Shown here: positions 3,650-48,748 of the stretch, in pieces
How positions within the stretch are numbered: the stretch's first letter is position 1
Layout: every line of letters starts with the position of its first letter
Origin: Coriobacteriia bacterium
Lineage (GTDB): Bacteria > Actinomycetota > Coriobacteriia > Coriobacteriales > UBA8131
Length of the DNA: 53,435 nt
Direction of reading: 5' to 3'
Assembly: GCA_009784425.1 (NCBI GenBank)
Contig: WRBR01000004.1
Location: forward strand, 1-53,435
Notes under the pieces: generated by a model
Seen by the model: only the letters and a program-made list of their open reading frames with translations
Database searches by the model: none
Told to the model about the DNA's origin: nothing
Translations under genes and position numbers: made by a program

Positions 3650-3704
3650 GGCAGTATAAAAAGAGTACAAAAAGAGAGTCCAGTGTGTTTAATTGGAGGT
3701 AATA

Positions 3705-5492
3705 ATGGGAATTCTTGCAGCCTACGCTGTTCCGCATCCGCCCCTGCTTATTCCCGGCGTTGGGGATGACAGCAAGCTATCTGTGCAAAAAACCAAAGAG
3801 GCCTTGGAGGAGGCAGCCCGGCGCGCTGCAGAGCTGGGGCCCGAGACACTGGTGATTATCTCGCCTCATGCGCCCATGTATGCAGACGCCTTTCATATAT
3901 CGCCTGGTGTAGGTGCGAGCGGAGACTTTGGCATGTTTGGGGTGAGCGAAGCTGCGTACACCGCGATGTACGATGAGGAGTTTGTATCGCTGCTTGAGGA
4001 GCTGTCGCTCGAAAAGGGCATTTCCTGCACAACGCAGGGGCAAAAGGATACTTCGCTTGATCACGCAACAATGGTGCCCCTTCACTTTTTTGGCAAGGCT
4101 CTCGGCGATGCCGGCGGGGCTGGCGCTGACTATAAAGTTGTGCGCATTGGGCTCAGCGGCCTTGGCTTTGACAAGCACCTTGCCTTTGGCAAGGCGATTG
4201 CCCAGGCAGCCAATGCCCTGGATCGCAAGGTGGCGGTGGTAGCAAGCGGCGACCTTTCACACAAACTATTGGCAAGCGGTCCCTATGGTTTTACGCCTGA
4301 GGGTCCCGAGCTTGACGAGAAGATATGCGCAGCCCTTACAGAGGGTAGCGCGGAGAGCCTCATGGCGATTAGCCCCAGGCTTGCAGATGCTGGCGCGGAG
4401 TGCGGCCTCAGGTCCTTCATCATGATGAGCGGGGCACTCGACGGCCTTAACTATACTTCTGAGCTGCTCTCTTACGAGGGCCCCCTGGGCGTTGGTTATG
4501 CCGTGGCTTCTTATCAGGAAGGCGCTCTGCAGGAGGCGGCGGCTCCGGTTGCTGAGGCAAAAGAAGAAGCGGCTTTGGGCGTTGTGGCTCTTGCGGCAGT
4601 GGGGGCGGCGGCTGTTGATAAGGCTGCTGTTGATAAGGCAGCTGCTGATGAAGCAGTTACAGAAGAAGCAGTTGCAGATGAAGCAGTTGCTGAAGATTCT
4701 GCTGACGATGAAACGGTTGCTGAAGAAGAGGCAGTCACTAAAGACGAAGCGGTTGAAGACGAAGCGGCTGAAGACGAGGAGCCGTCCGAGGAGCCGTCCG
4801 CAGACGATGAAGCGGTTGCTGAAGACGAGACTGCCAAAGAAGAGGAGGCTGTCGACGATGAGGCAGCAGCAGAAGTGCTGGCCCCCGTGCCCGATGCACT
4901 TCTTGAAGATCTTTACTCCACCCCAACGGAATCCCTCCCCGTGGGCTTGGCGCGCAAGGCCCTGCAAGCCTACTTTGACCTGGGCAACACTCGCCCGGCA
5001 CTCGATACCCCGGAGATTCAGGAATTTCTGGAGCTCTACCAACAAGAACCCGGCCTCAAAGAGGAGTACGAAGATCTGGCAAACAGAAAGGCCGGAGTTT
5101 TTGTCAGCATCCACGAAGGGCAAGAGCTGAGGGGCTGCATTGGCACCATAGCGCCCGCCCGGGAATCTGTCTTGGCCGAGATCATCCAAAATGCGGTGAG
5201 CGCAGCGAGGGAAGATCCGCGGTTTTTACAGGTGCAGGCGTATGAACTCGGCGATCTCACCGTTAAGGTAGACATCTTGGGAGAAGCAGAGCAAGTGCGC
5301 GACCGTCAGGAGCTGGACCCCAAGCGTTACGGGGTCATCGTCAGGCGCGGGCACCGACGCGGCCTGCTTTTACCAGACCTTGAAGGTGTCGATACCCCCA
5401 AAAAGCAGATAGAGATAGCGCTCGCCAAAGCGGGCATCCGCGGCAGAGAATCTTACGCGCTTGAGCGCTTTGAAGTGGTGCGTTATACATGA
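3705..5492 (+). CDS. amrB-amrA: AmmeMemoRadiSam protein B-A fusion (MEMO1-like plus AMMECR1 domain)
   Basis: Two-domain fusion. Residues 1-270 are a MEMO1 domain related to class III extradiol dioxygenases, with HPPLLIPGVGDD, SPHAPMYADAF, DHATMVPLHFF and SGDLSHK supplying the likely metal-site histidines and acids. Residues about 390-595 are an AMMECR1 domain with the hallmark LRGCIG and the REDPRF region. They are joined by a 115-residue, highly acidic Ala/Glu/Asp linker (about 4530-4880) built from degenerate repeats. An in-frame TTG lies at 3693, but ATG 3705 has GGAGGT 5-10 nt upstream and is preferred. The stop overlaps the start of the radical SAM gene by 4 nt, so the three parts of the AmmeMemoRadiSam system form one translationally coupled unit. 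The biochemical function of the system is not established. Confidence 0.92.
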   Translation: MGILAAYAVPHPPLLIPGVGDDSKLSVQKTKEALEEAARRAAELGPETLVIISPHAPMYADAFHISPGVGASGDFGMFGVSEAAYTAMYDEEFVSLLEELSLEKGISCTTQGQKDTSLDHATMVPLHFFGKALGDAGGAGADYKVVRIGLSGLGFDKHLAFGKAIAQAANALDRKVAVVASGDLSHKLLASGPYGFTPEGPELDEKICAALTEGSAESLMAISPRLADAGAECGLRSFIMMSGALDGLNYTSELLSYEGPLGVGYAVASYQEGALQEAAAPVAEAKEEAALGVVALAAVGAAAVDKAAVDKAAADEAVTEEAVADEAVAEDSADDETVAEEEAVTKDEAVEDEAAEDEEPSEEPSADDEAVAEDETAKEEEAVDDEAAAEVLAPVPDALLEDLYSTPTESLPVGLARKALQAYFDLGNTRPALDTPEIQEFLELYQQEPGLKEEYEDLANRKAGVFVSIHEGQELRGCIGTIAPARESVLAEIIQNAVSAAREDPRFLQVQAYELGDLTVKVDILGEAEQVRDRQELDPKRYGVIVRRGHRRGLLLPDLEGVDTPKKQIEIALAKAGIRGRESYALERFEVVRYT

Positions 5493-6538
5493 GTCTTGCA
5501 CAGTGTTCCGTGTGTCCCCATGCGTGCAGTCTTGCACAGGACGAGAGGGGAGTGTGCGGAGCCAGGCGAGCTAAAGACGGCGCGGTCATCCCCCTTAATT
5601 ACGGCCGCTGTACATCGCTCGCGCTTGACCCTATTGAAAAGAAGCCGCTGGCGCGCTTTTATCCGGGAAGCACCATCTACTCATACGGCAGCTTTGGCTG
5701 CAACCTCAGCTGCTCCTTCTGCCAAAACTCAGAGATCTCGCAGGTGGTACAGAGAGACGGGGTTGGTGAGACAGAAGGGGACGGTTCATCTGTCTCGCGT
5801 GTGGTACAGAGGGACGGGGTTGGTGTACCAATTTCTGCGAAATTGGTACACCAACCCCGTCCCTCTGTACCACACCAACCCCGTCCCTCTGTACCACCGA
5901 CAAACCGGCCACCCGGACGCAGGTGGGATACGCGCACCATTCATGAAGGCCACCCGGCTTATACCCCGGTGCCAACCAGGTATCTCTCGCCGGCGGAGTT
6001 GGTGCAGCAGGCCTTAGCACTCAAACCCCAGGGCAACATAGGCGTTGCGCTCACCTACAACGAGCCACTTATCAGCCCGGAATATCTGCTGGATGTTGCC
6101 AAGGAGGTCCAAATCGAGGGCCTCAAGCTCGCCGTGGTGACCAACGGCTATGTTACGCCCCAAACGGCTGAGCAAGTTTTCAAAGCAACCGACGCCGCCA
6201 ACATCGACCTCAAGGCATTCAATCAAGACTTCTACACCTCAGTGGGAGCGCCGGCAGGTCTGGCAACCGTTAAGCAGAGCATCCAGATTGCCCTCGCCCA
6301 GGGTTGCCATGTGGAGATTACCACACTGGTAATCCCCGGCCTCAACGACAGCCCGGATGAAATGGCAGCAGAAGCCGCCTGGATTGCCTCGCTCAGCCCA
6401 GACATACCTTTCCACATAAGCAGGTTTCATCCGTCGTACCACATGATGGATCGCCCGCCCACGCCGGAGGACACCGTGCATACCCTGGCGCGCATTGCCA
6501 GGGAACACCTCAATTTCGTCTATATCGGAAATAGGTAA
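5489..6538 (+). CDS. amrS: AmmeMemoRadiSam system radical SAM enzyme, with in-frame palindromic insertion
   Basis: Radical SAM protein partnered with the preceding MEMO-AMMECR1 fusion (ATGA overlap). The N-terminus has family Cys pairs (CSVCPHAC, GVCGAR), then the cluster motif C71-x3-C75-x2-C78 (GCNLSCSFCQN) that binds the SAM-cleaving [4Fe-4S]. The barrel continues with ALTYNEPLI, AVVTNGYV, NIDLKAF and TTLVIPGLND. Directly after the cluster motif, about 50 residues (86-136) are encoded by a mobile palindromic element (5744-5897), and roughly 20 more unusual residues follow before the normal sequence resumes at YLSPAELV. The frame stays open, so the protein may be functional with a disordered loop, but activity is uncertain. 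Apart from the insert, length and motifs fit the family. Confidence 0.9.
   Translation: MSLAQCSVCPHACSLAQDERGVCGARRAKDGAVIPLNYGRCTSLALDPIEKKPLARFYPGSTIYSYGSFGCNLSCSFCQNSEISQVVQRDGVGETEGDGSSVSRVVQRDGVGVPISAKLVHQPRPSVPHQPRPSVPPTNRPPGRRWDTRTIHEGHPAYTPVPTRYLSPAELVQQALALKPQGNIGVALTYNEPLISPEYLLDVAKEVQIEGLKLAVVTNGYVTPQTAEQVFKATDAANIDLKAFNQDFYTSVGAPAGLATVKQSIQIALAQGCHVEITTLVIPGLNDSPDEMAAEAAWIASLSPDIPFHISRFHPSYHMMDRPPTPEDTVHTLARIAREHLNFVYIGNR
5744..5897. mobile_element. Compound palindromic repeat element, in frame within amrS
   Basis: An inner pair of perfect 34-nt arms (5801-5834 and 5840-5873) has a 5-nt loop. An outer 25-nt arm (5744-5768) matches, with one mismatch, the complement of 5873-5897. 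Between the left arms lies a segment starting AGACAGAAGGGGACGGTTCA that recurs at 48225. The forward translation reads QRDGVGETEGDGSSVSR, identical to the copy at 48.2 kb, so both copies sit in the same reading frame. It carries no transposase and resembles protein-embedded palindromic elements such as those known from Rickettsia (analogy only). Confidence 0.85.
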
Positions 6539-48194: not shown

Positions 48195-48748
48195 ATGATG
48201 TGGAACAGAGGGACGGGGTTGGTGAGACAGAAGGGGACGGTTCATCTGTCTCGCGTACCCCAGCGAGACAGATGAACCGTCCCCTTCTGTCTCACCAACC
48301 CCGTCCCTCTGTTCCAGACCCGGAATCTTCTCCCCAGGCTTCTGCCCCAGAGCCAGAAGAAATCGACTTCAGCGGTCTACCCAAGTACAACCTCGGTGCC
48401 CTCTTCATGCCAGCAGTCTGGGGGCCGGCGCATGGGCAGTGGATCAGCATCCTCTTCTACCCCCTCTGGCTCTTTGCCGACACCAGCATCACCAACGCGG
48501 TGCTCTTCGGCGGCTTCACCTACATCCTGGCTGCCTCAGTAATCATAGGAACCGCCGCACTCACCATCTTCTACGCCCGCACCGTAGGCTACAAAGCATA
48601 CGCACGCGTTGCCCACAAAGTCACCAAGGAGCAGTACCTCAAAAGCCAACGCAAATGGACAGTGATAAGCATACTCATCGCCATCGTCTTCGCTGCGTTT
48701 GCCACTTGGTACAACCTCACCATCCGCCTCCCGCAAGGCCTGAGCTGA
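48191..48748 (+). CDS. Small membrane protein whose N-terminus is encoded by a palindromic element
   Basis: A 185-aa protein of unknown function. Residues 4-42 are encoded by the 54-bp inverted repeat at 48201-48316 and are hydrophilic. A Pro/Glu-rich spacer is followed by YNLGALFMPAVWGPAHGQWI and three hydrophobic segments (about residues 76-96, 98-122 and 155-175). The native N-terminus before the insertion may have been very short. Its start overlaps the nth stop by 4 nt, which would couple the two genes. I do not recognise the family, although the opening of the membrane region resembles other small inner-membrane proteins that start with a conserved N-x-G-A-x-x-x-P-x-x-W-G pattern. Confidence 0.7.
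   Translation: MNDVEQRDGVGETEGDGSSVSRTPARQMNRPLLSHQPRPSVPDPESSPQASAPEPEEIDFSGLPKYNLGALFMPAVWGPAHGQWISILFYPLWLFADTSITNAVLFGGFTYILAASVIIGTAALTIFYARTVGYKAYARVAHKVTKEQYLKSQRKWTVISILIAIVFAAFATWYNLTIRLPQGLS
48201..48316. mobile_element. Perfect 54-bp palindromic element (8-nt loop) in a coding sequence
   Basis: The arms 48201-48254 and 48263-48316 are exact reverse complements. They contain the same modules as the 5.7-kb copy (GGGACGGGGTTGGTG, then AGACAGAAGGGGACGGTTCA) and are read in the same frame (QRDGVGETEGDGSSVSR, then RQMNRPLLSHQPRPSVP). Confidence 0.9.

Follow-up and report, generated by a model that had tools for sequence, protein, structure and literature searches.

The gene for the radical SAM enzyme AmrS of a Coriobacteriia bacterium (assembly GCA_009784425.1) carries, shortly after the CxxxCxxC cluster motif, a palindromic segment that leaves the reading frame open. 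The locus raises two questions: where such a segment comes from, and whether an enzyme that carries it so close to the active site still folds and works. The analysis rests on one metagenome-assembled genome, 86% complete, and the window referred to below is the whole stretch of contig WRBR01000004.1 that was analyzed (positions 1 to 53,435). The assignment of AmrS is supported by matches to the TIGR04337 profile (E 2e-78, 263.7 bits against a cut-off of 220) and to Radical_SAM (PF04055). The 599-aa ORF directly upstream of amrS (3693-5492) is a fusion of AmrB/Memo-like (LigB) with AmrA (AMMECR1), joined by a long, acidic, repetitive and Ala/Glu-rich linker. The features of the locus are as follows:

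5489..6538, plus strand: amrS, AmmeMemoRadiSam-system radical SAM enzyme, 349 aa, ORF uninterrupted through the insert
5699..5722, plus strand: codons of the CxxxCxxC cluster motif (C71, C75 and C78; codons checked), invariant across 27 aligned orthologues
5743..5898, no strand assigned: the entire palindromic insert, 156 nt or 52 codons, part of the AmrS reading frame
5744..5768, plus strand: outer left unit GTGGTACAGAGAGACGGGGTTGGTG, with one private change
5768..5796, plus strand: lone hairpin of a second unit type (type B, GAGACAGAAGGGGACGGTTCATCTGTCTC) nested in the left side, a stem-loop on folding that is also present in the second copy in the window
5799..5835, plus strand: left arm of the perfect inner palindrome, containing the inner unit 5803-5823
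5839..5875, minus strand: right arm of the perfect inner palindrome, containing the inner unit 5851-5871
5875..5895, minus strand: outer right unit, from the unit scan

The insert begins at residue 86, seven residues past Cys78, and runs to about residue 137. The roughly 50 additional in-frame residues that the initial annotation placed near the motif are borne out by these 52 codons and the open frame. The perfect inverted repeat it described is also real but longer than the 34 bp given: the inner arms (5799-5835 and 5839-5875) measure 37 nt, are 100% complementary and enclose a 3-nt loop. Around them lie the nested 25-bp repeat, found as described (5744-5768 with 5849-5873, 25 nt, 96% complementary), and two further outer pairs, 5801-5826 with 5872-5897 (26 nt, 100%) and 5743-5784 with 5857-5898 (42 nt, 83%). 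The block is built as a core flanked on either side by two outward 24-nt units, and the type-B hairpin is embedded on the left. When the same 451 nt were base-shuffled 200 times, perfect inverted repeats reached at most 11 nt, and the folding of the 79-nt core, as DNA, lies at z = -16 relative to shuffles.

The unit of the AmrS insert (type A) is a small hairpin with ends TGG..CCA, a 7-bp stem (TGGTACA/TGTACCA) and a loop of about 15 nt that contains CGTC (GAGGGACGGGGTTRG, with variants GAGGGACGGGGTTGG or ...TTAG). Solitary, tandem and doublet units are all present; the prevailing arrangement is a head-to-head pair of units around a perfect palindrome, often with extra units added symmetrically (++--, ++++----). 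The simple +- array accounts for 28 of 94 elements and ++-- for 14 of 94. Two sibling types are built in the same way as type A and have its GGGACGG core: type B (GAGACAGAAGGGGACGGTTCATCTGTCTC) and type C (TGACAAGGGGACGGGGCGTTTGTCA).

A 251-nt region at this locus matches 115 places in its own genome, and 489 copies of the 21-mer unit are present in the 2.0-Mb sequence (252 forward, 237 reverse; up to 3 mismatches), compared with none for a reversed-sequence control. The initial annotation had read the segment as a mobile element, which required other copies in the genome, and these exist by the hundreds. A similar 21-mer pattern gives 456 matches here (238 and 218 on the two strands) versus 3-11 in four genomes of the same genus, and nearly all relatives outside those four have no match; the few matches in the genus indicate that the unit family expanded in this lineage. 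The exact unit is absent from 84,980 named genomes that were scanned (a set from which the genome's own record may be left out), and thus none of those named organisms carries it. Individual elements were examined in 934 kb of stretches, including the window, which cover 345 of the 489 units and comprise 123 elements. One of them is the second family copy in the window:

48202..48315, no strand assigned: inverted type-B hairpins enclosed by type-A units

This copy lies just after an Nth-like gene and has no stop in the frame in which the next ORF begins (MNDVEQRDGVGE...). Elsewhere, two intergenic copies (L077:12332-12405 and L070:12633-12708) are centered in much longer perfect palindromes, extended by 82 and 29 bp, which suggests insertion into, or growth of, existing palindromes. 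Many contigs of the genome end inside elements (C16, C24, C44, C56, C62, C77, C82, C90, C106 and C111), and the repeat family probably explains much of the fragmentation of the assembly. Contig ends of this kind are expected if an assembler stalls at a repeat, and the AmrS insert could on that account be taken for an assembly artefact. Such an origin is extremely improbable, as 19 genes have both flanks of an element in the same protein family and frame, an outcome that chance joins would not give.

Two unrelated sites, one in DnaX and one at the end of an ABC transporter, have identical extended flanking arms of 7 bp (GCTGCTT/AAGCAGC), as would be expected of a unit that had moved together with its arms. 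No target-site signature is definable in the flanks, because the relatives differ too much in sequence for empty sites to be placed to the base, and in genes the palindrome runs 1-8 bp past the outer units.

The AmrS segment is probably a copy of a dispersed, non-autonomous REPIN-type palindrome that is spread by a RAYT (REP-associated Y1 tyrosine transposase), translated, and tolerated in a disordered loop; its movement and translation and the activity of its host enzyme are what we infer here. In the proposed mechanism, the RAYT would recognize the hairpins in single-stranded DNA and copy the element elsewhere. Most copies would settle between genes, and those that land in genes would survive only when open in the frame of the host. 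The surviving copies would then be translated as a polar, disordered peptide (VQRDGVGVP...GTPTPSLCT), to be accommodated in loops and linkers that tolerate a change in length, which in AmrS would be the hypervariable loop after the cluster motif.

The link to a RAYT is drawn from hairpins of the type-A class that flank RAYT genes here and in relatives, by analogy with known REPIN systems (PMC3116915). The only RAYT recognized in the assembly (PF01797, contig C48) is flanked by the sibling type C (TGACAAGGGGACGGGGCGTTTGTCA), unlike the type A of AmrS, with one unit before the gene and its inverse after it at the contig end. In the sister genome G004, one RAYT is flanked by type C and a second by a GGGACA...TGTCCC stem variant of type A, and related GGGACGG hairpins flank the RAYTs of G010, G006, G034 and G041. 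No RAYT flanked by the exact type-A unit (GGTACAGAGGGACGGGGTTGG) was found in this 86%-complete assembly. The missing cognate enzyme could point instead to a classical MITE moved by a DDE transposase, and in-frame fusions are known for MITEs too (PMC10969869, PMC2229807). This alternative is unlikely, for the units belong to the hairpin class that flanks RAYT genes, they occur solitary, in tandem and as doublets, and the long simple terminal inverted repeats of the IS type are not seen.

Of the 123 sampled elements, drawn from stretches of which the later ones were partly chosen by protein-level search, 19 lie inside genes confirmed by homology, and all 19 are in frame; about one fifth of the sampled copies with enough flanking sequence are intragenic. 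The first sample yielded 14 such copies among elements with enough flank (host assigned by NCBIfam or alignment), located in AmrS, PcrA, DnaX, a FAD oxidoreductase, a TIGR03279 radical SAM protein, fumarate hydratase alpha, GlyQS, RimM, PriA, a PepT-like peptidase, TatD, MtaB, an ABC ATPase and Mfd. The FAD oxidoreductase is the weakest of these assignments, as its best match ends near the insert. Five hosts were added later: GlgX-MalQ, ValS, CysS, a CopA-type ATPase, in which the insert sits just past the DKTGT motif, and RsgA. The initial annotation regarded a protein-tolerated palindromic mobile element so close to an active site as rare; the in-frame insertion stands, and such insertions are not unusual in this genome, where at least 19 genes carry one. 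No frame-broken host gene was found, the same-strand, different-frame cases lying between separate genes according to their ORFs. Two further candidates (L107:1911-2055 and L340:1645-1720) are long open frames without a family match and were dropped as host genes.

Several hosts have features of their own. GlyQ and GlyS form a single fused ORF (L088:1181-4261), and the palindrome sits in the linker between the alpha and beta parts. Besides its type-A element, PcrA (L070:1098-3557) carries another in-frame insert, close to the C-terminus (GETKGDGSCVLVLSQDNTRTHEPSPSVSP), which resembles a type-B palindrome. Genes of replication and repair make up four of the first 14 hosts (PriA, PcrA, DnaX and Mfd, in the stretches L088, L070, L071 and L108), a raw count that echoes the bias reported for intragenic REPs (PMC3733652). 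In the sister genome G004, one ABC transporter gene has two in-frame type-C palindromes (L243:10055-10724). In G034, a genome with six RAYTs, the stretches sampled show no palindrome inside long ORFs.

Statistical marks of translation distinguish the intragenic copies. Inside genes, all 26 intervals between successive units of the same orientation are multiples of three, versus 27 of 67 intergenic intervals (p=1.4e-8), and the length of the element (measured TGG..CCA) is divisible by three in 13/19 intragenic versus 24/71 intergenic copies (p=0.009). The loop variant GTTAG creates a stop in one frame per strand, which GTTGG lacks, and in the first sample the GTTGG subtype accounts for 45 of 47 scored units inside genes versus 54 of 136 outside (p=1e-12); GTTAG copies are also present in the later, selected intragenic set. 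Two of the three unit frames are open about equally often, yet 13 of the first 14 intragenic copies use the single frame VQRDGVGVP (p=2.8e-5). The later five copies are in this same frame and were left out of the test (n=14), because they were found with the peptide of that frame. Translational bypassing at hairpins occurs in other systems, and the mRNA-sense strand of the AmrS insert can form a 37-bp hairpin (folded as DNA); the peptide might accordingly never appear in the protein, the element being excised from the RNA or the hairpin skipped by the ribosome. Codon-multiple spacing, use of one frame and depletion of GTTAG speak for translation rather than removal or bypass; skipping would need neither a stop-free insert nor spacing in multiples of three, and this alternative is considered very improbable.

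The insert of AmrS falls in a loop that varies in length throughout the order. Among the AmrS orthologues of the order, the loop after the cluster motif is hypervariable (13-67 aa) and mostly without a palindrome; the segment itself is absent from most orthologues, as was also required if it had been acquired. Two other species have different palindromes in the same loop, one with a perfect 50-bp arm and core ACAGGGGGACGG (L011, from genome G026 of another genus) and one with a 23-bp arm (L013, from G004 of the same genus), each with a few further partial copies in its own genome. Of 80 named loci examined, mostly Firmicutes, the motif was found in 77, none of which has a palindrome of 10 bp or more in the loop. 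Named AmrS matches include Eggerthellaceae and Coriobacteriaceae at 34-52% best-segment identity. Comparable sites are seen in other hosts: the insert is absent from MtaB orthologues, and in RimM orthologues the linker that holds it here has a different sequence, both sites being of variable length.

All residues that are invariant in 27 AmrS orthologues are kept in this AmrS. Built with the same orthologues, an AF2 model reaches pLDDT >90 almost everywhere except at residues 95-155, where it is <50, and the nearest solved folds are the pyruvate formate-lyase activating enzymes. By this model the insert would be a disordered loop attached to a well-formed radical SAM barrel. Given its position in the hypervariable loop after the cluster motif, AmrS probably keeps its fold, in line with the model, and its function. 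A decaying, inactive gene, in which the insert has ruined the enzyme and the ORF is open by luck, is by comparison improbable: the invariant residues are intact, the fold is confident outside the insert, the loop holds palindromes in two other species, and the same insert is present in essential genes. What speaks for decay is the distance of seven residues from the third cluster cysteine, together with cases in which an intragenic insertion cut activity, such as an RPE (Rickettsia palindromic element) in guanylate kinase that altered substrate affinity (PMC2229807). The concern of the initial annotation about nearness to the active site is thus correct as to distance and less alarming as to consequence, in view of the variable loop, the other palindromes and the confident model.

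RPEs were reportedly described by Ogata (2000, 2002). They are dispersed, in-frame palindromes of Rickettsia (reviewed in PMC10969869 and PMC2229807), and one RPE-bearing protein, Gmk, is demonstrated to be translated and active (PMC2229807). The element of AmrS similarly codes for a peptide in frame in many unrelated conserved genes, 19 in this genome. By contrast, its host lies outside the Rickettsiales, its 24-nt hairpin unit is repeated symmetrically, and RAYTs are flanked by the same unit class. We file it as working like an RPE while forming a separate family, set apart by architecture and lineage rather than by alignment to RPE sequences.

With REPINs and RAYTs (PMC3116915, PMC2817692) the type-A element shares the inverted pair of short hairpins, the hairpin-forming spacer, and the high dispersed copy number (489 units against none in the control). 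The genome also has a RAYT between inverted units, though these are of the sibling type C, and the sister G004 has one between units of a stem variant of type A. It differs in the share of intragenic copies, in the absence of an exact-unit RAYT from the assembly, and in its ends, which are TGG..CCA rather than the terminal GTAG of the GTAG REP superfamily. REPs of the CGTC superfamily have a terminal tag, 8-9-bp stems and 4-5-nt loops (PMC3733652), whereas the CCGTCCC/GGGACGG core of type A lies within its loop of about 15 nt, on a 7-bp stem. Intragenic REPs of Opitutus, Thauera, R. conorii and others, CGTC-tagged ones among them, form dimers or clusters in ORFs that code for 20-82 residues (PMC3733652), and many of their hosts, like PcrA, DnaX, PriA and Mfd here, function in replication and repair. 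The Correia/NEMIS elements of Neisseria, with 107-bp and 155-bp forms, are stop-free in genes and stop-bearing between them (PMC2229807), which resembles the division between GTTGG and GTTAG, although their sequence and structure are unrelated to type A. The coding palindromes of nematomorph mitochondria are likewise long, perfect and translated in functional proteins (PMC6649704); both arms there code for conserved residues, however, and no insertion is involved.

On its sequence and architecture, we file the type-A family as a putative REPIN-type variant that falls outside the GTAG and CGTC definitions and would act like RPEs. Selfish DNA inside essential proteins was reportedly first described as a peculiarity of Rickettsia. 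Here an element of REPIN type, linked to RAYT hairpins, appears to do likewise and to a similar extent in a lineage unrelated to Rickettsia, with statistical marks of translation, and one enzyme loop, that of AmrS, is struck by three different palindromes in three species. The system offers a testable case of a mobile element adding linker sequence to proteins. A broader proposal, which we put forward tentatively and consider rather less likely than its opposite, is that in this bacterial family the turnover of REPINs keeps supplying proteins with new linkers: a stop-free subtype of 24 nt, or 8 codons, would have gained the ability to live in genes, read in one favored frame and repeatedly hitting the same tolerant loops. 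If so, the long lineage-specific loops in orthologues of AmrS, RimM and MtaB would be decayed insertions.
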